Shown here: positions 38,487 through 63,436 of the stretch, piece after piece | Position numbering within the stretch: the stretch's first letter is position 1 | Layout: each line of letters starts with the position of its first letter | Assembly: GCF_029017505.1 (NCBI RefSeq) | Contig: NZ_JAQGEI010000005.1 | Location: 1 to 64,000, forward strand | DNA: 64,000 bases | Reading direction: 5' to 3' | Source: Sedimenticola hydrogenitrophicus | Lineage (GTDB): Bacteria; Pseudomonadota; Gammaproteobacteria; Chromatiales; Chromatiaceae | Translations under genes and position numbers: made by a program | The notes under the pieces: generated by a model | Told to the model about the DNA's origin: nothing | What the model saw: only the letters and a program-made list of their open reading frames with translations | Database searches by the model: none

Positions 38487-39749
38487 ATGTTGAACAAGAG
38501 TGACCAGATTGCGCAGTTCGACCAGGTGTTGTGGAACGCGATTCAGGGCGAGGCCCAGAGACAGGAGCGGCATATCGAACTGATCGCCTCGGAGAACTAT
38601 ACCAGCACCCGGGTGATGGAAGCGCAGGGGTCGTTGCTGACCAACAAGTACGCCGAGGGCTATCCGCAGAAACGCTACTATGGCGGCTGTGAGCATGTGG
38701 ATGTGGTGGAGCAGTTGGCCATTGATCGCGCCAAAGAGCTGTTCGGTGCCGATTACGCCAATGTACAGCCGCACTCCGGTTCGCAGGCCAACGCGGCGGT
38801 TTACATGGCGCTGCTGCAGCCGGGTGAAACGGTGCTGGGCATGAGTCTGGCGCACGGTGGACATCTGACGCACGGCGCCCATGTCAGCTTCTCCGGCAAG
38901 ATCTACAACGCCGTACAATATGGACTGGATCAGGAGAGCGGTGAGATCGATTATGCGCAGGTGCAGGCCCTGGCCGAAGAGCACCGTCCGAAGATGATTG
39001 TAGCCGGCTTCTCCGCCTACTCTCAGGTGGTGGATTGGGCGCGCTTCCGGGCGATCGCCGATCAGGTGGGGGCTTACCTGTTTGTGGATATGGCGCATGT
39101 GGCCGGTTTAGTGGCGGCCGGGCTCTATCCCAACCCGTTGCCGTATGCCGACGTGGTGACCACCACTACCCACAAGACCCTGCGCGGCCCTCGCGGCGGA
39201 CTGATTCTGGCCCGGACCAATCCGGAGTTGGAGAAGCGACTCAATGCCGCGGTGTTTCCCGGTGGCCAGGGCGGCCCCCTGATGCATGTGATTGCCGCCA
39301 AGGCGGTGGCCTTTAAAGAAGCGCTGGAGCCGGAGTTCAAGGCCTATCAGGTGCAGGTGCTAAAGAACGCCCAGGCCATGGCGGAGGTGTTGGTCGAGCG
39401 CGGTTACGAGGTGGTCTCCGGTGGCACCCGCAACCACCTGTTTCTGCTCAGTCTGATCAAGCAGGGGTTGACCGGGAAGGAGGCGGACGCCGCTTTGGGA
39501 CGGGCCTCGATCACCGTGAACAAGAACTCGGTGCCGAATGATCCCCAGTCGCCGTTTGTCACTTCCGGTCTGCGCATCGGTTCCCCGGTGGTGACCACCC
39601 GGGGCTTCGGCGAGGTGGAGTGCCGGGAGCTGAGCCACTGGATAGCGGACATCCTGGATACCCTGCAGCATGGTGATGCGGAGCCGGCCATCGCCCAGGT
39701 GAAGGAGAAGGTGGAGGCGCTCTGCGCCCGTTATCCGGTGTACCGTTGA
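38487..39749 (+). CDS. glyA: Serine hydroxymethyltransferase
   Basis: GlyA transfers a C1 unit from methylene-THF to glycine. The 420-residue protein contains [36 protein letters not shown] and the PLP lysine in [17 protein letters not shown] 38487 follows GGAGGATGG. It is the first gene of a run of sdaA and sarcosine oxidase genes with short gaps, so this copy probably serves glycine disposal during betaine growth rather than biosynthesis. A second, biosynthetic copy may exist elsewhere. Confidence 0.97.
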
Positions 39750-39764
39750 GCGAGGATTGCGCTG

Positions 39765-41147
39765 ATGGCGATCAGTCTGTTCGATATGTTGAAGGTCGGA
39801 ATCGGTCCTTCCAGTTCCCATACCGTGGGGCCGATGAAAGCGGCGCAGCGCTTTGCCGCTTCCCTGCAAAGTGACGGTCTGTTGCCGCAGGTGGCACGGG
39901 TGCAGTGCCAGCTTTACGGCTCCCTGGGTGCCACCGGCCGCGGTCACGGTTCCGGGCCGGCGGTGTTGCTCGGCCTGGAGGGGTATCAGCCCGAAGTGGT
40001 GGATCCGGCAAGGGTGCCGCTGAGGGCGCAGGCGATCTGTGAGCAGTCCAGGCTGTGGTTACTGGAGCGCCAGGAGATCGAGTTCGACGAGTCGCGGGAT
40101 ATCTGTTTTCTGGGGCACGAGCTTTTGCCTTACCACGCCAACGGGCTGTGTTTCAGCGCCTGGGACCCGAGCGGCGAGTTGGTGAGTCAGCGAACCTACT
40201 ATTCGGTGGGAGGTGGCTTTGTGGTGGATGAGGCGGCCGCCGGGGCCGATCGGATCGTTGAGGACGACACCCCGTTGCCGTACCCCTTCCACACCGCGCG
40301 TGAGCTGTTGAATATTTGTGAAGAGAGGGACCTCTCCATCGCCCAGGTGATGATGGCCAACGAGCAGGTCTGGCGCAGTGAGGCGGAGGTGCGTGCCGGC
40401 ATTCTGGATATCTGGCAGGTAATGCAGGAGTGCGTCCAGAACGGCATCCGCAACGAAGGCATACTGCCGGGTGGCCTGAACGTAAAGCGGCGTGCCCCGA
40501 CCCTGTACCATGATCTGAAAAACCGCAATCGCATGGACATGATCACGCCGTCGATGGGGGCCCTGGACTGGGTCAATCTGTACGCCCTGGCGGTGAATGA
40601 GGAGAATGCGGCCGGCGGGCGCATGGTGACCGCACCCACCAACGGTGCCGCCGGCATCATACCCGCGGTGTTGCATTACTATGTCAACTTTTGCCCCAAT
40701 TCCGATCAGGAGGGGGTGATCAACTTCCTGCTTACCGCCTCGGCGATAGGCATCCTGTTCAAGGAGAATGCCTCCATCTCCGGTGCCGAGGTCGGCTGCC
40801 AGGGCGAGGTGGGCTCGGCTTGCGCCATGGCGGCGGCGGGATTGGCGGAGGCCGCCGGCGGCACGCCGCGGCAGGTGGAGAATGCGGCCGAGATCGGCAT
40901 GGAGCATAACCTGGGGCTGACCTGTGATCCGGTGGGCGGACTGGTGCAGGTGCCCTGCATCGAACGCAACGCCATGGCGTCGCTGAAGGCAATCAATGCT
41001 GCTACCCTGGCGGTGCGCGGAAATGGAGAGCACTTCGTGTCGCTGGATCGGGTGATCGCCACCATGAATGTGACCGGCAGGGACATGCTGGACAAATATA
41101 AAGAGACCTCCCGGGGCGGACTGGCTGTCAATGTCATCGAGTGTTGA
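39765..41147 (+). CDS. sdaA: L-serine ammonia-lyase (iron-sulfur type)
   Basis: SdaA deaminates serine to pyruvate. The 460-residue single-chain enzyme has the N-terminal [18 protein letters not shown] and a C-terminal catalytic domain with [32 protein letters not shown] and [19 protein letters not shown], whose cysteines hold the [4Fe-4S] cluster. It follows glyA by 15 nt. Placed here it converts betaine-derived glycine, via serine, to pyruvate. Confidence 0.96.
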
Positions 41148-41190
41148 TGACTGCGGCGGTCACTGACCGGGTGAGACTGAGGACGAGACT

Positions 41191-42444
41191 ATGCAGAAAT
41201 ATTCCGGTTTCGGGCTGCTGAAACATGCGCTCAGCCATCACGAAAACTGGCAGCGGGTGTGGCGCAACCCCACGCCCAGGACCCATTACGACGTGATTAT
41301 CATCGGTGGTGGCGGGCATGGCCTGGCCACCGCCTACTACCTGGCCAAGGAGCACGGCATCACCAATGTGGCGGTGATCGAGAAGGGCTACCTGGGCGGC
41401 GGAAACACGGCACGCAACACCACTATCGTGCGCTCCAACTACCTGTGGGACGAGGCGGCCCATCTGTATGAGCATGCGCTGAAGTTGTGGGAGGGGTTGT
41501 CACAGGACCTGAACTACAACGTCATGTTCTCCCAGCGCGGGGTGCTCAACCTGGGCCACACGCTACAAGACATGCGAGATATCCAGCGGCGGGTCAATGC
41601 CAACCGGCTGAACGGTATCGACGGCGAGGTGCTGGATGCCAAACAGGTGCAGGAGATCGTGCCGATCATGGACTGCTCGGCCAATCGACGCTACCCGGTG
41701 ATGGGCGCCTCCTGGCAGCCGCGCGGCGGTGTGGCGCGCCACGATGCGGTGGCCTGGGGCTTTGCCCGGGCCGCCGACCGGCTCGGTGTGGATCTGATTC
41801 AACAGTGTGAAGTGGTGGATATCCAGGTCGAGGACGGGGCCGCCACGGCGGTGGTCACCAAACAGCACGGCACCATCAAGGCGGGCCGAATCGGTTGTGT
41901 GGTCGCCGGCAACTCCAGTGTGCTGGCGCAGATGGCCGGCTTTCGGTTGCCGCTGGAGTCCCATCCGCTGCAGGCCCTGGTCTCGGAGCCGATCAAGCCG
42001 GTGCTGGATACGGTGGTGATGTCCAATCATGTTCACGGCTACATCTCCCAGGCCGACAAGGGCGATCTGGTGATCGGTGCCGGTATCGACGGTTATAACG
42101 GCTACGGCCAGCGCGGCTCCTACCCGACCATCGAGCACACCGTGCAGGCGATCGTGGAGCTGTTCCCGATCTTCAGCCGGGTGCGTATGAATCGCCAGTG
42201 GGGCGGCATTGTGGATACCTGTCCGGATGCCTGTCCCATTATCTCCGATACGCCGGTAGAGAACCTGTTCTTCAACTGCGGTTGGGGTACCGGTGGCTTC
42301 AAGGCGACACCGGGCTCGGGGCATGTGTTTGCGGCCACCCTGGCCAAGGGTGAGGCCCATGAACTGGCCAAACCCTTCTCCATGTACCGCTTCTACGACG
42401 GTGCGTTGATTGACGAGCACGGCGCCGCCGGCGTGGCCCACTGA
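41191..42444 (+). CDS. soxB: Sarcosine oxidase beta subunit
   Basis: The 417-residue subunit of the heterotetrameric enzyme oxidises sarcosine to glycine and methylene-THF. The N-terminal FAD motif [21 protein letters not shown] and a [18 protein letters not shown] segment, which likely contains the His that binds FMN covalently, are present; [18 protein letters not shown] closes the flavin fold. Not related to the thiosulfate Sox system. It begins soxBDAG 44 nt after sdaA. Confidence 0.96.
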
Positions 42445-42460
42445 GCGAAGGAGTACCGAC

Positions 42461-42754
42461 ATGTTCCATATCTACTGCCCCTATTGCGAAGAGCATCGCG
42501 AGGAGGAGGAGTTCCACGCCAAGGGCCAGGCGCACATCGCCCGCCCGCCGGCCCCGGACGACTGCAGCGACCGGGAGTGGGGTGAGTTCCTCTACTTCCG
42601 TGACAACCCGCGTGGTCTTCACCATGAGCTGTGGGTACACGCCGCCGGCTGTCGCAAGTTTTTCAACATCACCCGCGACACCCAGACCTACGAAATCAGG
42701 GAGACCTACAAGATCGGGGATCAGCCCGCAGTCTCCACCAACCCGGATCAGTGA
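42461..42754 (+). CDS. soxD: Sarcosine oxidase delta subunit
   Basis: The 97-residue zinc subunit is short, with CPYCEEHREEEEF and HAAGCRKFFNITRDT giving the Cys/His ligands. It follows soxB by 16 nt with AAGGAG before the start. Confidence 0.96.
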   Translation: MFHIYCPYCEEHREEEEFHAKGQAHIARPPAPDDCSDREWGEFLYFRDNPRGLHHELWVHAAGCRKFFNITRDTQTYEIRETYKIGDQPAVSTNPDQ

Positions 42755-42764
42755 GGCGCTGACT

Positions 42765-45700
42765 ATGACACAAAAGAACCGTCTCCAGTCTGGCGGCCGC
42801 ATCGATCGCACCCGCCCCCTGCCGTTTGAGTACAACGGCAAACGTTACACCGGGTTTGCCGGGGACACCCTGGCCTCGGCCCTGCTTGCCAATGGCGTCG
42901 ACCTGGTGGGGCGCAGTTTCAAGTACAGTCGTCCGCGTGGCATCGTAGCCGCCGGTGCCGATGAGCCGAACGCCATCATGCAGCTGGGTGCCAGTGAGGC
43001 GACCCAGGTACCCAACGTACGGGCCACCCAGCAAGAGCTGTACGAGGGGCTGGTGGCCCACTCCACCAATGGCTGGCCGAGCACCGAATTCGACCTGATG
43101 GGCTACCTCGGCAAGGTCGGTGGGCGCATGATGCCGCCCGGGTTTTACTACAAGACCTTTATGTACCCGCAAGCGATGTGGGATACCTACGAGAAGTACA
43201 TCCGCAAGGCGGCCGGGCTTGGACGTTCACCCCTGGAGAATGATCCGGACCGTTACGATCACGTCAACCAGCATGCGGATGTGATGGTGGTGGGTGGCGG
43301 ACCCAGCGGCCTCAGCGCGGCGCTGGTCGCCGCACGCAGTGGGGCACGGGTGATCCTGGCCGATGAACAGGCCGAGTTCGGCGGCATGCTGCTGCACAGC
43401 GACGAACAGATCGACGGTGTGGCGGCCGTTGAGTGGGTGGCCGACAGGGTGCGGGCGCTAGGGGAAATGGACAACGTGTTGCTGCTGCCCCGCTCCACGG
43501 TCAACGGTTACCATGATCACAACTTCCTTACCATTCACCAACGGCTCAGCGATCATCTGTCGGACCGCGCCCCCCAGGGGCAGGTTCGTCAACGCATACA
43601 CCGGGTACGCGCCCGCTGGGTGGTACTCGCCAGCGGTGCCATCGAGCGACCGCTGGTGTACGGCAACAATGACCTGCCGGGCTGTATGCTGGCCTCCGCG
43701 GTGTCCACCTATATCAAGCGCTATGCCGTGGTGCCGGGTCAGCGATTGGTGCTGATGACCACCAATGACTACGGCTACCGTGCGGCGTTTGATTGGCAGG
43801 ATGCGGGACACGCGATTGCGGCGATTGTGGACACCCGCACCAATCCGGACGGCGAGGCCGTGAGCATGGTCCGGGATCGGGGCTTGAACCTGATCACCGG
43901 TGCCGCGGTGATCGAGGTGACGGGCGGTAACCGGGTATCGGGCGTGGTGATCGCGGATATTGATGAGGGCGGTGGGCGGGTGACCGGCAAACCGTACAGC
44001 CTGGCGTGCGACACCGTGGCCAGCGCGGGCGGCTGGAGCCCGACGGTGCACCTCTCCTGCCATACCGGCAGCCGTCCCGAGTGGCGCGACGATATTGCCG
44101 CCTTTGTCCCGGGAAAGGGTGTTCAGCAACAGCTGGTGGCCGGTGCGGTAAACGGCAGCTATGCGCTGGCGGCCTGTCTTGAAGAGGGCGCGCGCCAGGG
44201 GGCGCAGGCGGCGATCAATGCGGGCTTCGAGGTGGACCTGGAACAACTGCCCATACCCTCGGCGAGGAACGTGGAGGAGTGGCCGGCGATGCCCCTGTTT
44301 CATGTGCCGCACACCAAACCGACCAGTCGCGCCCCGAAGCAGTTCGTCGACTATCAGACCGATGTCACCGCGGCGGCGGTGGAACTGGCGACGCGGGAGG
44401 GCTTCGAGTCGATTGAGCACGTGAAGCGCTACACCGCGATGGGGTTTGGCACCGATCAGGGCAAACTGGGCAATATCAACGGCATGGCGATCGCCGCCAA
44501 GTCGATGAACAAGAGCATCCCGGAGACCGGTACCACCATCTTTCGGCCCAACTACACCCCGGTCACGTTCGGCGCCATCGCCGGACGCCACTGTAATGAG
44601 CTGTTTGATCCAAAACGCTTGACCGCCATGCACGGCTGGCACCAACAGCACGGCGCCAAATTCGAGGATGTGGGGCAGTGGAAGCGCGCCTGGTATTTCC
44701 CCCAACCCGGCGAGAGCATGCGCCAGGCGTTGGATCGGGAGTGCCGGGCCACCCGTGAGAGTGTGGGCATCATGGATGCCTCAACCCTGGGCAAGATCGA
44801 TATCCAGGGCAGGGATGCGCGCGAGTTCCTGGGCCGGGTATACAGCAACGCCTGGGCCAAGTTGGGGGTCGGCAAGTGTCGCTACGGCCTGATGTGCGGT
44901 GAAGACGGCATGGTGTTTGATGACGGCGTCACCTCCTGCCTGGCGGAGGATCACTTCCTGATGACCACCACCACCGGCGGTGCCGCCCATGTGCTGGAGT
45001 GGCTGGAGCTGTATCACCAGACCGAGTGGCCGGAGCTGGAGGTCTATTTCAACACCGTGACCGACCACTGGGCCACCATGTCGATTGCCGGCCCGCGCAG
45101 TCGCGAACTGCTGGCCGAGCTGACCGACGATATCGATCTGGGGCGCGACGCGTTTAATTTCATGGAGTGGCGTAGCGGTACAGTGGCCGGGGTTCCGGCA
45201 CGGATATTCCGTATCTCCTTCACCGGTGAACTCTCCTTCGAGATCAATGTGCAGGCGAACTACGGCTTGTATGTGTGGGAGAAGCTGTTTGAGCATGGAA
45301 AAAAATACAACCTGACACCTTATGGCACGGAGACGATGCATATCCTGCGTGCAGAGAAGGGGTTCATCATCGCCGGTCAGGACACAGACGGCTCGGTAAC
45401 TCCACTCGATCTCGGGATGGGCTGGTGTGTGGCCAATCAGAAACCGTTCAGTTATATCGGCAAGCGCGGCATGGCGCGCGAAGATTGTGTGAAACCGCAG
45501 CGCAAGCAGCTGGTCGGTCTGAAGAGTCGGGATCCCCAGGTGGTGATACCCGAGGGTTCGCAGGCGGTGGACGATCCCAATCAGCCGTTGCCCATGCGCA
45601 TGCTGGGGCACGTCACCTCCAGCTACTACAGCGCCAACCTGGAGCGCAGTATCGCGATGGGTTTTGTCCGTGGGGGGCATGATCGGATGGGCGATACGGT

Positions 45701-45791
45701 CTACTATCCACAGGCCGACGGTACGGTTATCGAAGCCGAGATCTGCAGCCCGATCTTCCTGGATCCGAAAGGGGAGCGCCAGAATGTCTGA
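42765..45791 (+). CDS. soxA: Sarcosine oxidase alpha subunit
   Basis: The 1008-residue subunit has an N-terminal 2Fe-2S-like domain (SFKYSRPRGIVAAGADEPN), an NAD-binding domain with VVGGGPSGLSAALVAARSG, and a C-terminal GcvT-like folate domain from about 600 onward that captures the methyl carbon as methylene-THF. ATG 42765 is used; the longer frame overlaps soxD. Complete and of standard length. Confidence 0.96.
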   Translation: MTQKNRLQSGGRIDRTRPLPFEYNGKRYTGFAGDTLASALLANGVDLVGRSFKYSRPRGIVAAGADEPNAIMQLGASEATQVPNVRATQQELYEGLVAHSTNGWPSTEFDLMGYLGKVGGRMMPPGFYYKTFMYPQAMWDTYEKYIRKAAGLGRSPLENDPDRYDHVNQHADVMVVGGGPSGLSAALVAARSGARVILADEQAEFGGMLLHSDEQIDGVAAVEWVADRVRALGEMDNVLLLPRSTVNGYHDHNFLTIHQRLSDHLSDRAPQGQVRQRIHRVRARWVVLASGAIERPLVYGNNDLPGCMLASAVSTYIKRYAVVPGQRLVLMTTNDYGYRAAFDWQDAGHAIAAIVDTRTNPDGEAVSMVRDRGLNLITGAAVIEVTGGNRVSGVVIADIDEGGGRVTGKPYSLACDTVASAGGWSPTVHLSCHTGSRPEWRDDIAAFVPGKGVQQQLVAGAVNGSYALAACLEEGARQGAQAAINAGFEVDLEQLPIPSARNVEEWPAMPLFHVPHTKPTSRAPKQFVDYQTDVTAAAVELATREGFESIEHVKRYTAMGFGTDQGKLGNINGMAIAAKSMNKSIPETGTTIFRPNYTPVTFGAIAGRHCNELFDPKRLTAMHGWHQQHGAKFEDVGQWKRAWYFPQPGESMRQALDRECRATRESVGIMDASTLGKIDIQGRDAREFLGRVYSNAWAKLGVGKCRYGLMCGEDGMVFDDGVTSCLAEDHFLMTTTTGGAAHVLEWLELYHQTEWPELEVYFNTVTDHWATMSIAGPRSRELLAELTDDIDLGRDAFNFMEWRSGTVAGVPARIFRISFTGELSFEINVQANYGLYVWEKLFEHGKKYNLTPYGTETMHILRAEKGFIIAGQDTDGSVTPLDLGMGWCVANQKPFSYIGKRGMAREDCVKPQRKQLVGLKSRDPQVVIPEGSQAVDDPNQPLPMRMLGHVTSSYYSANLERSIAMGFVRGGHDRMGDTVYYPQADGTVIEAEICSPIFLDPKGERQNV

Positions 45792-46452
45792 TGTAAAAAC
45801 ACCGCAAGCGGAAGTCAAGAAAAAACTGGACGTGGTCATGATGGACCAGCTGCCCGGGGCGGGCCCGCGGGCGGAGAGCCCACTGCACCATGTCGGTCTG
45901 GACAGCCTGACAGATTCCGAAGCGCAGTCCGCTGGGGTGCAATTGAGGGAGCACAAACTGCTGGGGCACCTGGTGCTGCGCGGCTCCAGGGAGAATGCCT
46001 CATTTCTGAATGGCGTCGAACGGGTGGTGGGCATGGCGCTGCCGGAGACGCTGCAGAGTGTGGCCTCGGAGAACCGGTCGCTGCGTTGGATCTCGCCCGA
46101 TGAGTGGCTGTTGATCCTGCCGGGGAACGAGGCGTTCGAGATGGAACAACAGTTGCGCGAGGCGATCGAGGGGCACTATGCGGTGGTCAATGTCTCCGGC
46201 GGTCAGACCCTGATCGAACTGTCCGGCGAACAGGCCGTGAATGTGCTGAAAAAGAGCACCGGTTACGACCTGCATGCGGGCACCTTCCCACCGGGCAAGG
46301 TGGTCACCACCACCTTTGCCAAGACCCAGGCGGTCATCCGGCGCATCGATGACACCCGCTGGGAATTGATCGTGCGGCGCAGTTTTGCCGACTACGTCTG
46401 GCTATGGCTACAGGATGCCGCTGCGGAGTACGGGCTGAGCGTACAGCGCTGA
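45784..46452 (+). CDS. soxG: Sarcosine oxidase gamma subunit
   Basis: The 222-residue subunit overlaps the end of soxA by 8 nt. It resembles a degenerate GcvT-like module (SEQ: LIELSGEQAVNVLKKSTGYD) and completes the heterotetramer. Confidence 0.94.
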   Translation: MSDVKTPQAEVKKKLDVVMMDQLPGAGPRAESPLHHVGLDSLTDSEAQSAGVQLREHKLLGHLVLRGSRENASFLNGVERVVGMALPETLQSVASENRSLRWISPDEWLLILPGNEAFEMEQQLREAIEGHYAVVNVSGGQTLIELSGEQAVNVLKKSTGYDLHAGTFPPGKVVTTTFAKTQAVIRRIDDTRWELIVRRSFADYVWLWLQDAAAEYGLSVQR

Positions 46453-46501
46453 GTTTGACTCGGAATCGGCCGCGCCTGCCCCGGCAGGCGCGGGTTGGTG
46501 A

Positions 46502-47395
46502 TTAGCTCTGTTGAGGTGCCCATTCGGGGATCGGTAGCTGGTGCTGCCGCAGCGCGGCGAGCAGGGTATTGAGCAGCAGGCAGGCGATCGTCATCGGTCC
46601 CACACCACCGGGCACCGGGGTGATGGCGCCCGCTACTTCCTGCGCCTCGCGAAAGGCCACATCTCCCACCAGTCGCGGTTTGCCATTTTCTCCGGGCAGC
46701 CGGTTGATACCCACGTCGATCACCGTCGCGCCGGGTTTGATCCAGCTACCCCGAACCAGCTCCGGCTGTCCGGCGGCCACTACCAGGATATCGGCCTGTC
46801 GGCACAAGCCGGCCAGATCCCGGCTGCGGGAGTGAGCGGTGGTGACGGTGCAGTTTTCGCTCAATAACAGATGACTCATGGGGCGACCGACCAGTTGTGA
46901 GCGCCCGATCACCAGGGCCTGCTTGCCGGTCAGGTCGCCAAGTACGCCTCGCAGTAACATCAGACAGCCGAGGGGCGTGCAGGGGACGATGCCGGGGGTG
47001 CCGCCGGCCAGTCGCGCTACGTTGACCGGGTGGAAGCCATCCACGTCCTTGTCCGGGTGGATACTGTCGAGTATTGCATCCGCGTCTATGTGGGAGGGCA
47101 GCGGCAGCTGGACCAGGATGCCGTGCACCCGCGCATCGTCGTTCAATCGTTCGATCAGCTGTAGCAATTGCTGCTGGGTGGTCGACTGCGGCAGCCCGTG
47201 CTCGAACGCCCGCATGCCGCACTCTCCGGTCTGTCGCGTCTTGCTGCGCACGTAGCTCGCGCTGGCCGGGTCCTCTCCCACCAGCACCATCGCAAGCCCC
47301 GGGGTGATGCCCTGCGAGTGCAGTGCGGCGACCTGTTGGGTGATCTGCGTTCGTAGTGTCCGAGCCGCTGTTTTTCCGTCAATGATATGTGCCAT
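46502..47395 (-). CDS. folD: FolD, methylene-THF dehydrogenase/cyclohydrolase (canonical copy)
   Basis: FolD interconverts methylene-, methenyl- and formyl-THF with NADP or NAD. The 297-residue protein has all expected residues: YVRSK with the catalytic Lys, VQLPLP with Gln, [14 protein letters not shown] and [12 protein letters not shown] 47395 follows GAGG; the ATG at 47407 is also possible. It runs divergently from the corrinoid protein gene and faces soxG. This copy should be bifunctional, unlike the paralogue at 56872-57789. Confidence 0.95.
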
Positions 47396-47674
47396 CTGTT
47401 GCCTCATTTGGGTATGCTGCCGCCGGTTTGGGATGCCTGTCCTAAGTGCCGGCGAAGTGCCGTTCTGAGGCCCTAGATTAGGGCTACCGGGCGCCCCTTT
47501 TTGTCCCCCCGGCGACGGACTTTTTACCCATCGCGACGGCGGCTTTTTTTTGTGTCGCTTTTCGGTAATCACGTGTCGCAACCGGTGGCTGCAGGGGGGG
47601 CGGCCTGCCAATAATCTTGGACCCGTAAGCCGTGGCAGTTTGCGGCGGGTTCTATTAATGACGGAGATCTGCAC
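47396..47674. promoter_or_regulatory. Divergent control region between folD and the corrinoid operon
   Basis: A 279-nt gap separates the divergent starts. It is G/C-rich with T-runs (five to nine T) at 47500-47551. Promoters for both must lie here. A GbdR operator is plausible, but I cannot identify one with confidence. Confidence 0.4.
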
Positions 47675-48406
47675 ATGTCCAATAACGAAGAGCTGTACGA
47701 CGAGGAAGAACTGGACCTCTCAACGCTGCCCGACGATGAACTTGTGGAGCAGATGTATGACGATCTGTACAACGGTATGCACGCGGAGATCGGCGAAGGG
47801 ACCCAGATCCTTCTGGATCGCGGCTGGTCCGCGGAGAAGGTGCTGTCTGATGCACTGGTGGCCGGGATGGGCATCGTGGGCGTAGATTTCCGTGACGGTA
47901 TCCTGTTTGTTCCCGAGGTACTCTCCGCCGCCAATGCGATGAAGAGCGGTATGGAGATCCTGCGTCCGATCCTGGCAGACACCGGCGCTGAGTCGGTAGG
48001 CAAGATGGTGATCGGCACCGTAAAGGGCGACATCCACGATATCGGCAAGAACCTGGTGGCGATGATGATGGAAGGCGCCGGATTCGAGGTGATCGATCTC
48101 GGTATCAATATCCCGGTTGAGACGTACCTGGAGGCCCTGGAGACCCACAAGCCGGACATCCTCGGCATGTCGGCGCTGCTCACCACCACCATGCCCTACA
48201 TGAAGGTGGTGATCGATACCATGAAGGAGAAGGGTATCCGCGACGACTACATCGTGCTGGTCGGTGGCGCGCCCCTGAACGAGGAGTTTGGCGAGGCGGT
48301 CGGTGCCGACGGTTACTGTCGCGACGCGGCGGTTGCCGTGGATATGGCCAAGGAGTTGGTGGCCCAGCGTCGGGGTGGGGCCATCGCCCAAGTGGCGGTT
48401 GCCTGA
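47675..48406 (+). CDS. Corrinoid (B12-binding) methyl carrier protein of MttC/MtgC type
   Basis: The 243-residue protein carries the methyl group on cobalt between the betaine methyltransferase and the THF methyltransferase. It has a helical cap (from about 20) and the cobalamin-binding His in [19 protein letters not shown], followed by [14 protein letters not shown] and [21 protein letters not shown]. An acidic N-terminal extension ([12 protein letters not shown]) precedes the cap. It starts a plus-strand operon: corrinoid protein, DUF1638 protein, metV, metF, methyltransferase and reactivase. Substrate identity is inferred from context. Confidence 0.93.
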
Positions 48407-48425
48407 CTGCGCCGGGTCAGATGCC

Positions 48426-55116: not shown

Positions 55117-56685
55117 CTATACGTTGGAATCAGGAAACGACGCTTTACGTCGCGCCACGTAGTCACATAGGGCTTCGTCCACCGCCGGGTCGATAGCCGG
55201 CGCCTGGTAGTCCGCCAGCATCTGCTTCCAGCGCTGATTGGCGCGTTGTGGCTGGTCCTTGCTGCCCTCGGATTCCCACTGCTCGAAGCTGTTGTTATCG
55301 GCCAGCGGTGAGCGGTAGAACGCTGTCTTGAAGTTGGCCTGGGTATGGCTGCAGCCCAGGAAGTGGTTGCCCGGCCCCACCTCCCTGATGGCGTCCAGCG
55401 CCTGACCGTTTTCACTCAGATCAACACCCTTCAGTAGCACCTCCATCATACTCGCCTGGTCCGCATCCATGACGAACTTCTCGTAACCCATGACCAGTCC
55501 GCCCTCCAGCCAGCCGGCGGTGTGCAGCACAAAGTTGACCCCGGCGAGCGCGGTCGGCAGCAGGGTGTTGACCGACTCGCTGGCCGCCTGGGCATCCGGG
55601 ACCTTGGAGGCGCTGAGGCTGCCTCCGGAACGGAAGGGTACGCCAAGGCGTCGTGCCAGGGCGGCCATGATATAGAGCACCAGGGCCGGTTCCGGGGTGC
55701 CGAAGGTGGGCGCCCCCGACTGCATGGAGATGGAGCTGGCAAAGCTGCCCATCACCACCGGAGCGCCGGGATTGACCAGCTGTACGAAGGCCATGCCCGC
55801 CAGTGCTTCAGCGAGTGATTGGGCGGCGGTGCCGGCGACCGTCACCGGCGACATGGCACCGGCGAGGATAAACGGGGTTACGATGCAGGCTTGGTTGTTG
55901 CGCGCATAGACCTTGGCCGCACCCAGCATGGTGTCGTCAAAGGTCATTGGCGAGTTGGCGTTGATCAGGCTGGTGGTGACGGTCTTTGGGCGACCGGTCT
56001 CGGGGTTGATGTAGTCGTCGCCGAACAGGATCTTCACCATCTCCACGGTATCCTCGGCCCGCTCGGGCGCCGTTACCGAGCCCATGAAGCACTTGTCGGA
56101 GTACTTGATATGGCTGTAGATCATGTCGAAGTGGCGTTTGTTCACCGGCAGATCCACCGGCTCACAGATGGTGCCGCCGGAGATATGCAGGCTGGATGAC
56201 AGATAGGTCAGCTTGATCAGATTTTCGAAGTCCTGCAGCGTGGCGTAGCGGCGACCCTGCTCCAGGTCGTAAACAAAGGGCGAACCGTAGCCGGGGGCGA
56301 AGGCGGTGTGCTTGCCGCCGATACGCACACTGCGCTCGGGATTACGCGCATGCTGGGTGTACTCCCGGGGAGCCGAGGCCTGGATAATCTGACGGCAAAA
56401 CCCGCGCGGGAAGCGCACCCGTTCGCCGCTGACCTCCGCGCCGGCGTCCTTCCAGATCAGCAACGCCTCCGGGTCATCGCGAAACTCGATACCGATCTCC
56501 TCGAGCAGGGTGTCGGCATTGGACTCGATCAGGCTCAGCCCCTCTTCATCCAGCACCTCGTAATAGGGGATGTTGCGCGTGATGTAGGGTACGATCGGGA
56601 CGCTGGCTTCAGCGGCGACGAGGCGCGCGGCTCGGCCTCCACGACGGCTGCGCCGGGTGGGTGCGGATGCATCAGATTGGCTCAT
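55117..56685 (-). CDS. MttB-superfamily (non-pyrrolysine) glycine betaine:corrinoid methyltransferase candidate
   Basis: The 522-residue protein belongs to the trimethylamine methyltransferase (MttB) superfamily. The body is a TIM barrel with family segments such as GGTICEPVDLPVNKRH, SLINANSPMTFDDTM and ILAGAMSPVTVAGTAAQSLAEALAG. No in-frame TAG is present, so it lacks pyrrolysine and belongs with glycine betaine (MtgB) and related quaternary-amine methyltransferases. Context (GbdR, DMG dehydrogenase, sarcosine oxidase, corrinoid partner) favours glycine betaine, giving dimethylglycine. The basic N-terminal 20 residues (TRRSRRGGRAARL) are an extension. ATG 56685 has AAAGGAG. Carnitine, choline or proline betaine are alternative substrates. 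Confidence 0.93.
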   Translation of the reverse strand: MSQSDASAPTRRSRRGGRAARLVAAEASVPIVPYITRNIPYYEVLDEEGLSLIESNADTLLEEIGIEFRDDPEALLIWKDAGAEVSGERVRFPRGFCRQIIQASAPREYTQHARNPERSVRIGGKHTAFAPGYGSPFVYDLEQGRRYATLQDFENLIKLTYLSSSLHISGGTICEPVDLPVNKRHFDMIYSHIKYSDKCFMGSVTAPERAEDTVEMVKILFGDDYINPETGRPKTVTTSLINANSPMTFDDTMLGAAKVYARNNQACIVTPFILAGAMSPVTVAGTAAQSLAEALAGMAFVQLVNPGAPVVMGSFASSISMQSGAPTFGTPEPALVLYIMAALARRLGVPFRSGGSLSASKVPDAQAASESVNTLLPTALAGVNFVLHTAGWLEGGLVMGYEKFVMDADQASMMEVLLKGVDLSENGQALDAIREVGPGNHFLGCSHTQANFKTAFYRSPLADNNSFEQWESEGSKDQPQRANQRWKQMLADYQAPAIDPAVDEALCDYVARRKASFPDSNV

Positions 56686-56871
56686 GCTGTCGACTCCTTT
56701 GTAGTCCGAAAACCGGTACATTTGTGGGTTTATAAACAACGCGTTAGGCGGTACTGATGGTCGTTGATGGGGCTAATGGTGCGCCCGCCGGCGACCCCAG
56801 GCTGACCCGTGAGCGACCTGCATCTGTTTGCCTGCGTCAAGCATCGGAGGCAGGCCGCAATCAGGGCCGGA

Positions 56872-57789
56872 TCACACCGCCATCGGCTTGCCGAACTCCG
56901 CCTCGTAGTGCTGGCGCTGTCGACGGGCGGCGACCAGGGTATTGCGCATCAGAGTGGCCACCGTTACCGGGCCCACGCCACCCGGAACGGGTGTGATCCA
57001 GCCGGCGATTGGGCGGCAGGAGTGGTAATCCACATCACCCACGATGCGGGCTTCGCCACTCTCTGTCTGAATCTGATTGATGCCGATGTCGATCACCGCC
57101 GCCCCGGGTTTGATCATGTCGCCGGTGATCAGTCCCGGTTTTCCGACGGCCACAAATACCGCATCCGCCTGTCGGGAGTGCACCGCCAGGTTGCGGGTCA
57201 TGTGGTGACACACGGTTACCGTGCAGCCCTCCGACATCAGCAGGAAAGCGATCGGTTTACCGACGATCTCGGAATGGCCCACCACCGTCACCTCCAGTCC
57301 CTGCAGTCTGAGGCCGGTGCGTTTCAGCAGCTCTACCGAGGCGGCAGCGGTACAGGGTGCCAGGTCGAGCTGGTTGTAGACGATGTTGCCAATGGAGGCC
57401 GGGTGCATACCCTCCACGTCCTTCAGCGGGTGAACTGCAGATTGCAGTTTTTTGATTGCCAGGTGGCTGGGCACCGGGCGCTGAATGATGATGCCGGTGA
57501 CGCTTGGGTCCGCGTTCATGGCCGCCAGTGCGGCGTGCAATTCAGTGTCGGATACGTCGGCGGAAAAGTTGCGCTCTTCGAACGCGATGCCGGCGCGTTC
57601 GGCGGTGCGCTTCTGATTGCGCACATAGACCTCTACGGCGCTGGTGTCGCCCACGGTAATCGAGATCAGTTTCGGTTTCCAACCGTGCGATTTAAGCGAC
57701 TCCATCTGGTCGTGTATGTCGGCCAGGATCTGGTCGGCGACAGCTCTTCCGTTCAGGTCTTTGTGTTCATGCGTGGCCGCTACTTGCAC
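56872..57789 (-). CDS. folD: FolD paralogue with altered catalytic lysine
   Basis: The 305-residue protein is FolD-like overall, with the Rossmann segment VVGHSEIVGKPIAFLLM and [17 protein letters not shown]. The catalytic motif YVxxK reads YVRNQK: Gln replaces the Lys needed for cyclohydrolase activity, and Lys falls one position late. QLPLP is QRPVP and KDVDGFHP is KDVEGMHP. From FolD and MTHFD1 studies, loss of this Lys abolishes the cyclohydrolase step but can leave the dehydrogenase. It lies upstream of the methyltransferase gene in the same direction. It may favour one direction of C1 flow. Confidence 0.9.
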   Translation of the reverse strand: MQVAATHEHKDLNGRAVADQILADIHDQMESLKSHGWKPKLISITVGDTSAVEVYVRNQKRTAERAGIAFEERNFSADVSDTELHAALAAMNADPSVTGIIIQRPVPSHLAIKKLQSAVHPLKDVEGMHPASIGNIVYNQLDLAPCTAAASVELLKRTGLRLQGLEVTVVGHSEIVGKPIAFLLMSEGCTVTVCHHMTRNLAVHSRQADAVFVAVGKPGLITGDMIKPGAAVIDIGINQIQTESGEARIVGDVDYHSCRPIAGWITPVPGGVGPVTVATLMRNTLVAARRQRQHYEAEFGKPMAV

Positions 57790-58243: not shown

Positions 58244-58795
58244 TCAGGCGTAGATGCGCGTGTCGGTAACGATCTGGTCCATCCGGATGTCATGCGGTTC
58301 GCTGGGAATCGATTCCCTGACTTGAAAGTCATACGCAATGGCCACCTTGCGCCCGTTGCTTCGGGCCAGGAAACGGTCATAAAAACCGCCCCCGTAACCG
58401 ATACGGTTGAGGTTGTGGTCGAATACCAGACCAGGCACCAGGATGAGATCGCAATCCTCCTCGTGGCGTGGCAGGGACTGTTTCGGTTCCAGCAGGTTGA
58501 AGGCGGTCCGCTCCTCGAACTGGTCGAAGCTGGTGACCTGATAGTTGTCCAGCTTGTGGTTTTTCAAATCGGTGCGCGGCATCACCACCTGGATGTCGCG
58601 CCGCCAGAGCTCTTCGATCAACTCGAGTGTGTTCACCTCATTATAGATGGCGTAGTAGAGGTGAACGCTTTTGACTTCGTCCAGGAAGCCGTTGTCCAGC
58701 AAGCGCTGCATCACCGCCCGGCTATGCTCCTGGTAGGACTGAGCGTCGAGCGCCTTGCGCTGTCTGAAGATCTCCTGTCGCAGGCTTTTTTTCAT
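58244..58795 (-). CDS. fau: 5-formyltetrahydrofolate cyclo-ligase
   Basis: The 183-residue enzyme uses ATP to turn 5-formyl-THF, a by-product of GlyA that inhibits folate enzymes, into methenyl-THF. KKSLRQEIFRQRKAL, LYYAIYNEVNTLELI and the ATP-binding LILVPGLVFDHNLNRIGYGGGFYDRFL are all present. ATG 58795 is used; the frame upstream is noncoding. In this cluster it keeps the folate pool clear during high C1 flux. Confidence 0.93.
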   Translation of the reverse strand: MKKSLRQEIFRQRKALDAQSYQEHSRAVMQRLLDNGFLDEVKSVHLYYAIYNEVNTLELIEELWRRDIQVVMPRTDLKNHKLDNYQVTSFDQFEERTAFNLLEPKQSLPRHEEDCDLILVPGLVFDHNLNRIGYGGGFYDRFLARSNGRKVAIAYDFQVRESIPSEPHDIRMDQIVTDTRIYA

Positions 58796-58861
58796 GGGCC
58801 ACTCTCTGATTCTGTGTCGGCGGTTTATGGTTGTACGGGATCCTACCCGGGTTGAGGCGGC

Positions 58862-59028
58862 CGGTATTGTTTGTTTGCGACCTGGCGATACACGATTACG
58901 GCATCGCTGCCGCCCCTTTTCCAACGGCTTCCCGAGGCCCTGAGTGGGTGGCGCAAATTGATACCTAACAGTCGCAAACGGGGCAGTCGGGGCGCTGGGG
59001 CGCTGGCTAAACTGCTTCGGAAATACCG
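58862..59028 (-). ncRNA. Candidate structured RNA in the 6S RNA position upstream of fau
   Basis: Two nested perfect stems enclose about 167 nt on the minus strand: CGGTATT/AATACCG (58862-58868 with 59022-59028) and GTTTGCGAC/GTCGCAAAC (58873-58881 with 58971-58979). A GNRA-type hairpin sits inside (58899-58912). In gammaproteobacteria 6S RNA often lies directly upstream of the cyclo-ligase gene on the same strand. However, the two stems are unevenly spaced, so the canonical 6S bubble is not evident. Position is suggestive; identity is unproven. Confidence 0.3.
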
Positions 59029-59102: not shown

Positions 59103-61616
59103 ATGAAATCTACCGCGCGTGTTGTAGTGATAGGTGGTGGCGTCGTCGGCGCCGGTACGCTCTACCATCTGGCCAAAAAGGGCTGGTCCGATGTGGTGAT
59201 GATCGAGCGCAAGGAGCTCACCTCCGGCTCGACATGGCACGCGGCGGGCCTGCTGCCCCTGTTCAATATGAGCTACTCGGTCGGCAAATTGCACCAGTAC
59301 TCGGTCGACTTTTACCAGGAGCTGGAGCGGGAGACCGGCCAGAGCGTGGGCTTCAGCCAGGTAAGCAATATCCGCCTCGCTAACTGCGACTACCGCATGG
59401 ACGAGTACAAGTACTACTCAGGAGTAGCCAAGACCGTGGGCGTGGAGGTGAAGTTCCTCACCCCCGACGAGGTCAAGGAAATCTGGCCGCTGTGCAACAC
59501 CGAGGGACTGTTGGGTGCCATCCAGCATCCGGAGGACGGCTATATCCAGCCGGCGGATCTGACCCAGGCGCTGGCCAAGGGTGCACGTGAGCGAGGGGCC
59601 GAGATCTACCGCTATACCACCGTGACCGGTATCGAGCAGCAGGCCGACGGGCGCTGGCTGGTGAAGACCGACAAGGGTGATATCGATTGTGAGCACGTGG
59701 TCTCCTGTACCGGCAGTTTTGCGCGCAGGACCGGCGAGATGGTGGGACTGGATATCCCGGTGATCCCGGTGGAGCACCAGTTTATCGTCACCGAGCCCCA
59801 TCCGGAGATCCAGGCGCGTCATCAGCAGGGTAAGCTTGAGATGGGCGTGTTGCGTGAGTCGGACGCCGGTTACTACCTGCGTGAGGAGGGCGGTGGTCTG
59901 CTGCTCGGTCCCTATGAGAAGGGCGCCCCCTGCTGTTACGTGGACGGTCCCGCGGATGACTGCGAGTACGAGCTGTTCAACGAGGAGCTGGACCGGCTGA
60001 TGCCGCACGTGGAAGCTTGTATGAACCGGGTGCCGGCATTTGGTGAGGTGGGGGTAAAGACCGTCTACAACGGCGCCATCGCCTACACCCCGGACGGCAA
60101 TCCGATCGTCGGCCCGGCACCGGGTTTGAAGAACTTCTGGCTCAATGAGGGACACAGCTTCGGCATCACCGCCGCTGGTGGCGCAGGCTGGCAGCTCGCG
60201 GAGTGGATCGTGGACGGCGAGCCGACCGTGGACATGATGGGCGTGGACCCACGCCGTTTCGGCCCCTATGCTTCGCGGGGTTATCTGCGCAACAAGAACG
60301 AGGAGGCCTATTCAAACGTCTTCACCACCCACTATCCGGACGAGGAGCGCCCAGCGGCACGGCCTCTGAAGACCAGCCCCTGCTATGATCGCATGAAGGC
60401 GCTCGGCGCGGTGTTCGGCAGCGTCTATGGCTGGGAACGCCCCAACTGGTTTGCGCCCAAGGGTTATCAGCTGAGCGAGGGCGATCTGGCCAAGGCCGAT
60501 GTGCTGTTGAATGACAACCACTCCCAGCCCCTGGAGGATGGGCGCGTGGTGGAGAAGAACTCCTTCCGTCGCTCCAACTACTTTGAGTTCGTGGGTCGGG
60601 AGTGTCGCCACGTGAACAGCAAGGTGGGGGTGCTGGATATGTCCGCCTTCGCCAAGTGCCTGGTCGCCGGCCCCGGTGCCGAAGCGTGGCTGGAGTCTCT
60701 GTTTGCGAATCGTATCCCGAAGAGCATTGGGCGTATCGGTCTGTGCCACATGCTGTCCAAGAACGGCGGCGTACGCGCCGAGTTTACGGTCTACAAGACC
60801 GGCCCGCAGAACTACTATCTGGTTTCCGCCGGTGCGTTTGAGAACCATGATCATGACTACCTGAAGAAGCTGAAGCCGAACGACGGGAGTGTGAACCTGC
60901 AGCCGATCACCACCCAGCAGGGCGTGTTGGTGCTGGCCGGTCCGCGCTCCCGCGAGGTACTGCAGAAGCTGACCGATAGCGACCTCTCGAACAAGGCGTT
61001 CCCCTGGTTGACCGGACAGTTCATCAACGTCGGCTATGCACAGGCCCACGCCCTGCGCGTCAACTTCGTTGGCGAGCTGGGCTGGGAGCTGCACCATCCG
61101 ATAGAGATGCAGAACTACATCTTCGATCAGTTGATGGCGGCGGGCGCAGAGTTTGATATCAAGCCGTTCGGTATTCGCGCCATGGACTCCATGCGAATCG
61201 AGAAATCCTATCGCCTGATCCCGCGTGAGATGTCGATTGAATACTCGGCCCTGGAGTCGGGTCTGGACCGCTTCGTGCGCCTGGACAAGAAGTGTGACTT
61301 CATCGGTAAACAGGCGCTGACAGATTGGCGGGCGCGCGGTTTCAACAACGCCTTTGTCACCCTCGAGGTGCACGGCGTGACCGATGCGGATGCCCGTGGT
61401 TCGGAGGCGATCTACAAGGATGGTGAAGTGGTGGGTCGTGCCACCTCTGGCGGGTACGGTTGGCGCGTTGGTAAGTCACTGGCCCTGGGGCTGGTGCAGC
61501 CGGCGCTGGCGGAGATTGGTACGGAGCTGCAGATCGAGATCCTGGGCGAGCTGTACAACGCCACGGTGATCGAGGAGTCGCCGTTCGATCCCGAGAACAA
61601 GTGCCTGCGTGCATAA
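59103..61616 (+). CDS. Dimethylglycine/sarcosine dehydrogenase-type flavoprotein with GcvT domain
   Basis: The 837-residue protein has an N-terminal DAO-type FAD domain (VVVIGGGVVGAGTLYHLAKKG) with a covalent-FAD histidine in GSTWHAAGLL, then a folate-binding GcvT-like C-terminal half (from about 430; VLAGPRSREVLQKL, VNFVGELGWELH). It should oxidise dimethylglycine to sarcosine, storing the carbon as methylene-THF and passing electrons to ETF, whose genes follow. Sarcosine or another N-methyl amino acid is a possible alternative. ATG 59103; the frame upstream is not coding. The gene is divergent from fau. Confidence 0.92.
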   Translation: MKSTARVVVIGGGVVGAGTLYHLAKKGWSDVVMIERKELTSGSTWHAAGLLPLFNMSYSVGKLHQYSVDFYQELERETGQSVGFSQVSNIRLANCDYRMDEYKYYSGVAKTVGVEVKFLTPDEVKEIWPLCNTEGLLGAIQHPEDGYIQPADLTQALAKGARERGAEIYRYTTVTGIEQQADGRWLVKTDKGDIDCEHVVSCTGSFARRTGEMVGLDIPVIPVEHQFIVTEPHPEIQARHQQGKLEMGVLRESDAGYYLREEGGGLLLGPYEKGAPCCYVDGPADDCEYELFNEELDRLMPHVEACMNRVPAFGEVGVKTVYNGAIAYTPDGNPIVGPAPGLKNFWLNEGHSFGITAAGGAGWQLAEWIVDGEPTVDMMGVDPRRFGPYASRGYLRNKNEEAYSNVFTTHYPDEERPAARPLKTSPCYDRMKALGAVFGSVYGWERPNWFAPKGYQLSEGDLAKADVLLNDNHSQPLEDGRVVEKNSFRRSNYFEFVGRECRHVNSKVGVLDMSAFAKCLVAGPGAEAWLESLFANRIPKSIGRIGLCHMLSKNGGVRAEFTVYKTGPQNYYLVSAGAFENHDHDYLKKLKPNDGSVNLQPITTQQGVLVLAGPRSREVLQKLTDSDLSNKAFPWLTGQFINVGYAQAHALRVNFVGELGWELHHPIEMQNYIFDQLMAAGAEFDIKPFGIRAMDSMRIEKSYRLIPREMSIEYSALESGLDRFVRLDKKCDFIGKQALTDWRARGFNNAFVTLEVHGVTDADARGSEAIYKDGEVVGRATSGGYGWRVGKSLALGLVQPALAEIGTELQIEILGELYNATVIEESPFDPENKCLRA

Positions 61617-61718
61617 ACCCGTTTACGGGACGGCGGCGGTCGTCCTGGGATCAATTGGATTCCGGTAATGATGATCAGTCCCGGTGTCGCATGACACCGG
61701 CAAGTGGAGCATAGCGTG

Positions 61719-62468
61719 ATGAAGGTGCTGGTTGGAGTGAAGCGGGTGCTGGACCCGCAGGTGAAGGCGCGGGTCAAGGCGGACGGTTCAGCCGTGGACT
61801 TGACCAATGCCAAGATGTCGATGAACCCGTTCGATGAAAACGCCGTGGAAGAGGCGATTCGACTCAAAGAGGCGGGACAGGTGGATGAGATTGTGACCGT
61901 CTCCATCGGACCGGAAAAGGCGCAGGAGACGCTGCGTCAGTCGCTGGCCATGGGTGCGGACCGGGCCATCCATGTGGTCACCGAACAGGTCCTCGAACCG
62001 CTCGCCGTGGCCAAGGTGTTTCAGCACCTGGTGGCGCAGGAGCAACCCGGCCTGGTGCTGGTAGGCAAGCAGGCGATCGATGATGATTGCAACCAGACCG
62101 GACAGATGTTGGCGGCGCTGCTCGGCTGGTCCCAGAGCACCTTTACTTCGGAGCTGAAAGTGGAGGGTGAAACCGCCACCACCCTGCGCGAAATAGACGG
62201 TGGACTGGAGCGGATCAGCGTACGTATGCCGGCGGTTGTGACCGTGGACCTGCGTCTCAATGAGCCTCGCTACGCCACGTTACCCAATGTGATGAAGGCG
62301 AAGAAGAAGCCGTTGCAGAAACTGGCCCTGGAAGAGCTGGGTCTGGATGTGGCGCCGCGCCTCACCACTCTGGAAGTGATGGAGCCGGAGGCCCGCGCGG
62401 CAGGAGTGCTGCTGGAGAGCGTCGAGCAGTTGGTGGAAAAACTGAGAAATGAGGCGCGGGTCATCTGA
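61719..62468 (+). CDS. etfB: Electron-transfer flavoprotein beta subunit
   Basis: The 249-residue subunit has the N-terminal [13 protein letters not shown] and the AMP/ATP-binding [24 protein letters not shown] 61719 (preceded by a short run of alternative start codons) is used. It takes electrons from the dimethylglycine dehydrogenase gene product encoded just upstream and delivers them through EtfA to the quinone pool. Confidence 0.95.
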
Positions 62469-62491
62469 TCCTGTGTGATGAGGAGCAAGCG

Positions 62492-63436
62492 ATGAGTGTG
62501 TTAATTATTGCCGAGCATGATAATCAGGCTCTGGCACCGGCCACCCTGAACGTCGTCACCGCGGCGCAACAGATCGCCGGTCATGCTGACACTACCGTGG
62601 ATATTCTGGTCGCCGGCCAGACCTGTGATGCAGTGGCACAGGCGGCGGCCCGAATCCCGGGTATTGCCCGGGTGCGGCTCGTGGATGACGCATCACAAGC
62701 CCAACAGTTGGCGGAAAATCTGGCCGCCCAAGTGGTGGCGCTGGCCGCGGAGTACAGCCACATATTGGCCCCGGCCACCACCTTCGGCAAGAACTTCCTG
62801 CCGCGGGCGGCGGCCCTGTTGGACGTTTCCCAGATCTCCGATATCAGCGCAGTGGTGGATGGGGAAACCTTTATCCGTCCCATCTTCGCTGGTAATGCGC
62901 TGGCCAAAGTGCGTTCATCCGACTCCTGCAAGCTGATCACGGTGCGCACCACCAAATTTGAAGCGAGTGCGGAAGAGGGCGGGAACGCCGCTGTGGAGCC
63001 GGTGACCGCCAGTGAAGAGAGTGGTCTATCCAGTTTTGTGGGTCGCCAGTTGTCACAATCCGAACGACCCGAACTGACCTCGGCGCGGATCGTGATTTCC
63101 GGTGGCCGCGGGATGCAGGACGGCGCCAACTTCCAACTGCTGGATGCGGTAGCTGACAAGCTCGATGCCGCAGTGGGCGCGTCACGCGCGGCGGTTGACG
63201 CGGGCTATGTGCCGAACGACTTCCAGGTGGGGCAGACCGGCAAGGTGGTGGCGCCGGACTTGTACATCGCGGTGGGTATCTCAGGGGCGATCCAGCATCT
63301 GGCCGGGATGAAGGACAGCAAGGTGATCGTGGCGATCAACAAGGACAGCGAAGCGCCGATCTTCCAGGTGGCGGACTACGGACTGGTGGAAGACCTGTTT
63401 GAGGCGCTGCCGGCGATGAGGGAGGCGCTGGGGTAA
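62492..63436 (+). CDS. etfA: Electron-transfer flavoprotein alpha subunit
   Basis: The 314-residue subunit binds FAD through [39 protein letters not shown] and [12 protein letters not shown]. It follows etfB by 23 nt. Dedicated to the betaine branch by position; an ETF:quinone oxidoreductase is not in the window. Confidence 0.96.

Follow-up and report, generated by a model that had tools for sequence, protein, structure and literature searches.

Which enzyme would remove the first methyl group from glycine betaine in Sedimenticola hydrogenitrophicus, and which regulator would control this step? The question is raised by a gene island within the first 64,000 nucleotides (the window) of contig NZ_JAQGEI010000005.1 (assembly GCF_029017505.1), which encodes an MttB-superfamily methyltransferase (MtgB), corrinoid-handling proteins and enzymes of dimethylglycine (DMG), sarcosine, glycine and one-carbon (C1) metabolism. 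The window forms the left end of this 166,939-base contig, and the genome comprises 5.13 Mb on 116 contigs (100% complete, 2.46% contamination). Genes were called by profile searches of translated frames using NCBIfam and Pfam cut-offs; 'a of b' below gives the bits reached and the cut-off. Considering the gene content, a search that found neither GbcAB nor betaine-homocysteine methyltransferase (BHMT), and conserved predicted regulator sites, all of which can be read directly from the sequence, we put the probability at roughly 85% that the island encodes a catabolic module for glycine betaine that depends on B12 and is controlled by a GbdR-type regulator.

The candidate for the first demethylation is mtgB (55117–56685, - strand; PF06253, 770.7 bits), a non-pyrrolysine MttB-superfamily gene without in-frame stop and the sole PF06253 match in the whole genome. 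The solved structures closest to its product were 4yyc (772 bits), 2qne from Desulfitobacterium hafniense (455 bits) and 9yce (454 bits), the last of which carries the name glycine betaine methyltransferase; the pyrrolysine MttB reached 144 bits. The MttB-type protein in 4yyc is presumably from Sinorhizobium meliloti. The trimethylamine methyltransferase MttB model TIGR02369 stayed below its cut-off (264.8 of 525). For the D. hafniense enzyme (DhMtgB), docking proposed Y94, N199, R309 and H345 as betaine contacts (PMC6855144). By our own column count in printed alignments, all four residues are identical in the window MtgB and differ in MttB, and loose patterns of the four sites were found in 81, 81, 81 and 79 of 81 MtgB proteins. 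An Rfam PYLIS_3 match lies inside mtgB (55518–55625, - strand; 41.3 bits, gathering threshold 38). Since the gene has no in-frame stop, we rejected pyrrolysine use, and the match most likely reflects shared coding homology that marks the gene family.

The partners of MtgB are encoded on the + strand. They comprise an mtgC-type corrinoid protein (47675–48406; PF02310, PF02607, DIHDIG motif), a DUF1638 protein with a predicted role in corrinoid recharging (48288–49103, longest frame; PF07796, 93.2 of 27), MetV (49162–49674; PF12225, 85 of 23), MetF (49671–50687; PF02219, 122 of 24), an mtgD/mtgA-type methyl-tetrahydrofolate (methyl-THF):corrinoid methyltransferase (50690–51592; NF005719, 365 of 259) and a RACo/RamA-type reductive activator of corrinoid protein (51525–53660, longest frame; PF14574, 301 bits, with PF17651, PF17650 and Fer2). 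An earlier reading made from the letters and open reading frames (the sequence-only reading) did not mention the DUF1638 gene, located between mtgC and metV. Every gene it did name for betaine, C1 and glycine metabolism was recovered by profile search where it had placed it, as were fhs and formate dehydrogenase (29693–34112), which it had put to the left of its main segment. Of the Ruegeria pomeroyi-type MtgBCD system, the window thus encodes the PF06253 protein, a separate corrinoid protein, a separate methyl-THF methyltransferase, and the RACo/RamA activator plus DUF1638. A B12-type first step in this genome is thus well supported, and homology, the neighbouring gbdR and predicted GbdR-type sites point to betaine as the putative MtgB substrate.

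We then asked for other first steps in the genome. Nothing genome-wide exceeded the 500-bit cut-off of the GbcB model NF058606; the best match (110 bits), a 406-aa reductase with flavohemoprotein as its best model (229.5 of 432), was rejected as GbcB. The Ring_hydroxyl_A domain of GbcA (PF00848) gave no match genome-wide, and the identical search was positive in 4 of 14 control genomes. On these scores, GbcAB elsewhere in the genome was rejected. The S-methyl_trans domain (PF02574) occurred twice, in a full-length MetH on contig C15 (2169 bits, cut-off 1497) and in a 312-aa homocysteine-methyltransferase-like protein. With 134.1 and 44.6 bits, respectively, both stayed below the cut-off of 338 for the BHMT model NF005718, and BHMT was rejected as well. 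Judged by the Bmt model PRK07534, taken here to cover MtgE-type proteins, both again fell short of the cut-off. MetH and the B12 module therefore coexist in one genome, and the suggestion that the corrinoid module stands in place of GbcAB and BHMT held for this genome.

Next to mtgB lies a gene for a gbdR-type AraC/GATase1 regulator (53702–54688, - strand). In relatives, we noticed a tandem repeat of the layout G(N)CGC-N15-G(N)CGC upstream of mtgB. This seed pattern occurred in 24 of 35 mtgB upstream stretches taken from loci bearing gbdR, and in 23 of the 24 a CATACT-like -10 box followed 57–59 bases from the first half-site. A position weight matrix (PWM) was built from 23 distinct sites of the relatives' mtgB promoters, with the window excluded. 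Applied to the window, it gave seven sites of at least 4.5 bits, one of them (7.3 bits) inside soxA. The predicted GbdR-type sites with the highest scores lie upstream of mtgB (56802–56839, - strand, 37.4 bits) and of the DMG dehydrogenase gene dmgdh (58949–58986, + strand, 17.4 bits; -10-like TAAACT at offset 59). Another predicted site faces fau in reverse orientation, within the same intergenic stretch as the dmgdh site (58866–58903, - strand, 11.5 bits), and one precedes mtgC (47553–47590, + strand, 10.0 bits; -10-like AATAAT at offset 57). Weak predictions were obtained upstream of fhs (34247–34284, + strand, 5.9 bits) and glyA (38337–38374, + strand, 4.6 bits).

Nine upstream regions (3,679 bases in total) had been written down before scoring, and six of the seven sites, including all four of at least 9.9 bits, fell inside them. 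Dinucleotide shuffles of these regions matched the observed count in 0 of 300 cases at three thresholds, with the mtgB region in or out. A control of 162,451 bases elsewhere in the genome contained ten sites of at least 4.5 bits, the best at 8.6 bits and none at 9.9 bits or more. From this comparison, we regard the mtgB, dmgdh, fau-facing and mtgC sites as firm predictions and those at fhs and glyA as suggestive. A looser pattern of the same layout matched 14 times in the window, 8 times within the nine regions and 6 times outside. Among the sites above 9 bits listed for relatives (top six per locus), 56 lie upstream of mtgB, 14 upstream of mtgC (33 loci with mtgC) and 4 upstream of the DMG dehydrogenase gene (10 loci); the mtgC and DMG dehydrogenase sites had no part in PWM training. 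The Pseudomonas aeruginosa CdhR site, GGTCGC-N15-GGTCGC, is called very similar to the sites of GbdR, SouR and ArgR in PMC5806209. Because the layout resembles that of CdhR and gbdR is adjacent, we assign the predicted sites to GbdR. Since a PWM built from relatives places sites in front of mtgB, mtgC and dmgdh, and weak ones in front of fhs and glyA, GbdR probably controls the module as a predicted regulon. Within the paper library searched, no publication joined GbdR, cobalamin, betaine and methyltransferase.

From the gene set and the sites, we infer the substrate, the direction of each step and the pairing of regulator and sites. MtgB would transfer one betaine methyl group to cob(I)alamin on MtgC, from which the methyl-THF methyltransferase would pass it to THF; RACo/RamA, perhaps together with DUF1638, would re-reduce oxidised cobalamin, and MetVF would convert methyl-THF to methylene-THF. 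The second methyl group would reach methylene-THF through the DMG dehydrogenase-type protein (59103–61616, + strand; PF01266, PF16350, PF01571 and PF08669), whose electrons would go to the electron transfer flavoprotein (ETF) encoded by etfB (61704–62468, + strand; PF01012, 144.7 of 26.7) and etfA (62492–63436, + strand; PF01012 and PF00766, 121 of 27). This protein combines an FAD domain with a GcvT-like folate domain; its name derives from domains and setting, and no NCBIfam cut-off was reached. The third methyl group would be taken to methylene-THF by a heterotetrameric sarcosine oxidase delivering electrons to O2. All four subunits, encoded on the + strand, exceeded their cut-offs: soxB (beta, 41191–42444; TIGR01373, 715 of 529.45), soxD (delta, 42410–42754, longest frame; TIGR01374, 125.9 of 116.5), soxA (alpha, 42582–45791, longest frame, profile from residue 64; TIGR01372, 1487.9 of 1164) and soxG (gamma, 45664–46452, longest frame, profile from residue 106; TIGR01375, 150.7 of 143.95).

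Methylene-THF would then be oxidised by FolD (copy 1, 46502–47395, - strand, NF010785, 458 of 396; copy 2, 56872–57789, - strand, PF02882 and PF00763), by the formate-THF ligase Fhs acting in the ATP-forming direction (34357–36048, + strand; NF010030, 905 of 652) and by formate dehydrogenase to CO2. The latter consists of an alpha subunit (31284–34112, + strand; TIGR01591, 767.8 of 666.25) and a diaphorase-type subunit, a NuoE-NuoF-like fusion with Complex1_51K and 2Fe-2S thioredoxin-like domains (29693–31366, + strand; under all NCBIfam cut-offs). GlyA, a serine hydroxymethyltransferase (38487–39749, + strand; NF000586, 654 of 335), and the L-serine ammonia-lyase SdaA (39765–41147, + strand; TIGR00720, 694.8 of 345.1) would yield pyruvate and ammonia from glycine and methylene-THF. 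In front of mtgB, mtgC and dmgdh, perhaps also of fhs and glyA, the gbdR product would bind the tandem G(N)CGC-N15-G(N)CGC sites and activate the promoters when betaine or DMG is present. Betaine methyl groups are probably stripped by a B12 enzyme and oxidised to CO2. The sequence-only reading had extended this to betaine use with or without oxygen, to completion. The heterotetrameric sarcosine oxidase family passes electrons to O2, and since the sarcosine step here is of this kind, the gene set does not support complete oxidation without oxygen; removal of the first two methyl groups could proceed in the absence of oxygen.

How does the island compare with known systems? In Pseudomonas, betaine is degraded by a GbdR-controlled pathway in which an oxygen-dependent GbcAB step is followed by DMG dehydrogenase, sarcosine oxidase, glyA and sda. 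The island resembles this pathway in its GbdR-type regulator, DMG dehydrogenase, sarcosine oxidase, glyA and sda, but GbcAB was not found in the genome. An aerobic betaine demethylation by MtgB, MtgC and MtgD with RamA and DUF1638 was described for R. pomeroyi in 2025; mutants and proteomics demonstrated that MtgC and MtgD are required for betaine use, and both double as methionine synthase parts, together with MtgE (PMC12478193). According to the same paper, clusters that include genes for the later demethylations occur in Alpha-, Gamma- and Deltaproteobacteria, mtgC is carried by the SUP05 clade, among others, and 28 of 239 metH-bearing genomes have mtgBCD. Like R. pomeroyi, as described there, the window encodes PF06253, PF02310 and PF00809 proteins, the activator, DUF1638, metF, sdaA and the DMG and sarcosine steps; unlike it, the genome has MetH and no MtgE-type protein above profile cut-off. 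In addition, one 34-kb stretch here brings together metV, fhs, formate dehydrogenase, two folD and gbdR, and a term search confined to the main text of PMC12478193 returned no GbdR, Fhs, fdh, formate or MetV.

The likeness to MtgB, MtgC and MtgA of D. hafniense concerns the fold family (structure 2qne) and the betaine contacts proposed by docking. D. hafniense is, however, an anaerobe, and the window MtgC falls under both curated MtgC cut-offs. On S. meliloti pSymB, genes for an MttB protein 68.8% identical to the window MtgB, a corrinoid protein, DUF1638, a metV-like protein, metF, a methyl-THF methyltransferase and an ASKHA activator stand together as in the window. There, bmt and betaine transporter genes are nearby; unlike the window, the 25 kb shown for pSymB contain no annotated gbdR, sarcosine oxidase or DMG dehydrogenase gene.

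To assess the spread of the system, we scanned genome contigs and found at least 581 MtgB-relative stretches among 588 pattern matches listed. The best 80 loci of those listed were kept (trimmed to 10 kb or ending with the contig), and genes were counted if matches reached 60 bits over at least 30% of the query. The activator was present in 39 loci, the methyl-THF methyltransferase in 38, gbdR in 36, metF in 34, mtgC and metV in 33 each, DUF1638 in 30, soxA in 18, DMG dehydrogenase in 10 and fhs in 4, where the gbdR, soxA and DMG dehydrogenase counts take in distant relatives (down to 37, 26 and 21% identity). One locus (L011), on a contig of the same-family genome G177, carries, one after another, DMG dehydrogenase, mtgB, gbdR, activator, mtgD, metF, metV, DUF1638, mtgC, soxG, soxA, soxB, fhs and a BCCT gene. 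The relative in Azoarcus KH32C adjoins betA, betB and genes for a choline transporter binding protein and an ETF-quinone oxidoreductase. The arrangement had been called unusual; given the many MtgB-relative stretches and the aerobic MtgBCD pathway and its clustering already in print (PMC12478193), it no longer is. With the route itself known since 2025, what the present analysis adds is the predicted GbdR-type regulon, the patchy presence of the module, and its coexistence with MetH and, in relatives, with GbcAB.

This last point concerns 10 of 35 relatives' genomes bearing this kind of MttB (35 of the 80 loci were submitted), in which GbcB scored above its cut-off; they include Amphritea balenae and three Pseudomonas. 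In Halomonas urumqiensis, no GbcB exceeded the cut-off. We thus rejected strict mutual exclusion of GbcAB and Mtg, and replacement of the first step by the corrinoid module, true of this genome, failed as a rule. Since both coexist in these ten genomes, the choice between B12-type and GbcAB-type first steps becomes an experimental question, and the predicted GbdR-type sites in a B12 pathway constitute a testable switch. In the order of the window, GbcB exceeded the cut-off in 0 of 195 genomes (at most nine candidates scored per genome, among the rows listed; one match of 394 bits). PF06253 matched in 3 of the 195, the own genome included, and one of the three reached no more than 331 and 292 bits with its two matches. 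The 2025 pathway is thereby extended to another lineage that carries sulfur-oxidation genes and in which the MttB protein is rare. A same-family genome (G202, C105:1471–4416) carries two adjoining lower-scoring PF06253 genes, one of which contains a TAA in frame. A wider reading, which we consider doubtful, is that Beta- and Gammaproteobacteria share a transferable, self-contained betaine-oxidation package under one GbdR-type regulon, equipped with folate enzymes (folK, pabB, two folD, glyA and fhs) and a formate dehydrogenase of its own, such that the regulator of the GbcAB route also drives the B12 route. If so, oxygen or B12 supply could decide which route is used in bacteria that have both.

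Several points weigh against a GbdR-controlled betaine module. F353, an aromatic residue docked near betaine in DhMtgB, is a glycine in the window MtgB, and MtgC misses both curated cut-offs for anaerobe-type MtgC (NF047996, 210.1 of 370; NF047995, 166.9 of 310). PMC12478193 describes mtgC and mtgD mutants, a term search for 'mtgB mutant' there came back blank, and several quaternary amines are given as substrates of PF06253 proteins. Concerning regulation, 11 of the 35 mtgB upstreams from gbdR-bearing relatives' loci carry no seed-pattern site, and the fhs and glyA sites score below several control sites. Of the sites above 9 bits listed for the relatives' 80 loci, 29 precede no labelled gene and 10 are intragenic. 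The gbdR protein matched NF052371 over residues 9–322 of 328 with 454.2 of 480 bits and, as this is under the cut-off, its GbdR-like function rests on the site layout. Finally, the window matches had been spotted by eye before scoring, and both the looser pattern and the thresholds were chosen once the first results were known.

The glycine at F353 and the published substrate range would also suit an MttB-type enzyme acting on another quaternary amine (proline betaine, carnitine, gamma-butyrobetaine or choline), with betaine entering otherwise. We consider this unlikely, as the single PF06253 copy lies beside gbdR and inside the DMG, sarcosine and glycine gene set, the four docking-proposed contacts are kept, the genome search turned up no alternative betaine first step, and the Azoarcus KH32C relative has betAB neighbours. 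The dual role of MtgC and MtgD described for R. pomeroyi (PMC12478193) would fit a module that mainly makes methyl-THF and methionine as a split methionine synthase, betaine breakdown being secondary. Against this quite unlikely alternative stand the full-length MetH, the failure of both S-methyl_trans proteins to reach the PRK07534 cut-off, and the predicted sites that mtgC and dmgdh have in common with mtgB. The betaine module under GbdR-type control remains our preferred reading.

PF06253 was found in none of the seven congeners searched (an eighth, 65% complete, lay outside that search). Two congeners retain a block of DUF294, exonuclease and BCCT transporter genes (window 24291–28579) at 71–93% identity, and this conserved genus block stops just left of folK (HPPK; 29094–29657, + strand; TIGR01498, 94.1 of 54.1), the first gene to its right. 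In these congeners, the next 15 and 16.5 kb past the block gave no match above 80 bits to proteins of this contig. Given that the MttB protein is missing from all seven congeners searched and present in 3 of the 195 genomes of the order, the island was likely gained as a package starting near folK. The opposite history, presence in the ancestor of the family followed by loss in most members, appears quite possible to us, even if it is not the reading we favour: in the MtgB tree, the one high-scoring MtgB of the same family (L011) clusters with the window MtgB and L013 (support 95/87), and the base composition of the island is like that of the rest of the genome and gives no sign of transfer. 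Nor is having a second pabB (36679–38220, + strand; TIGR00553, 374.7 of 328.4) special to this genome. Across the seven congeners, identities are 56–87% for the copy on contig C6 and 51–55% for the island copy, but two of them (G162 and G197) hold two pabB-like genes each, at 50–54% identity to the island copy, which weakens the case for transfer drawn from the extra pabB. The congener nearest by the C6 pabB (87%; G119, L102) is without mtgB. Further genome copies exist for glyA (one, on C24, 75% identity) and folD (one, 51 and 41%). No tRNA gene as an insertion point was found in 82 kb scanned.

A mis-assembled contig or a bin contaminant, for which the 116 contigs and 2.46% contamination might speak, is very unlikely, given that left-flank genes on the same contig are 71–93% identical in two congeners, that neither the window nor the next 18 kb contains an N, and that composition is alike. 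In favour of this alternative, too, the right flank is not tied to congeners, its test gene encoding a many-copy GGDEF/EAL protein (49–76 matches per genome in nine genomes). These counts also indicate a very large c-di-GMP repertoire in the genus.

The remaining genes concern the setting of the island. The 5-formyl-THF cyclo-ligase gene fau lies at 58244–58798 (- strand; PF01812, 143.8 bits). The BCCT transporter (24291–25898, + strand; PF02028, 595 bits) has the betaine type as its best model, yet under the cut-off (NF047988, 521.5 of 650), and is native to the genus (91–93% identity in two congeners). Profile searches also placed aprB and aprA at 19824–22177, which makes the host probably a sulfur oxidiser. 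A 280-aa protein without Pfam match, perhaps a membrane anchor, is encoded ahead of them, the three genes together spanning 18954–22177, and an alternative oxidase (AOX) gene occurs at 10509–11132 (- strand) alongside the sulfur-oxidation genes in the genome.

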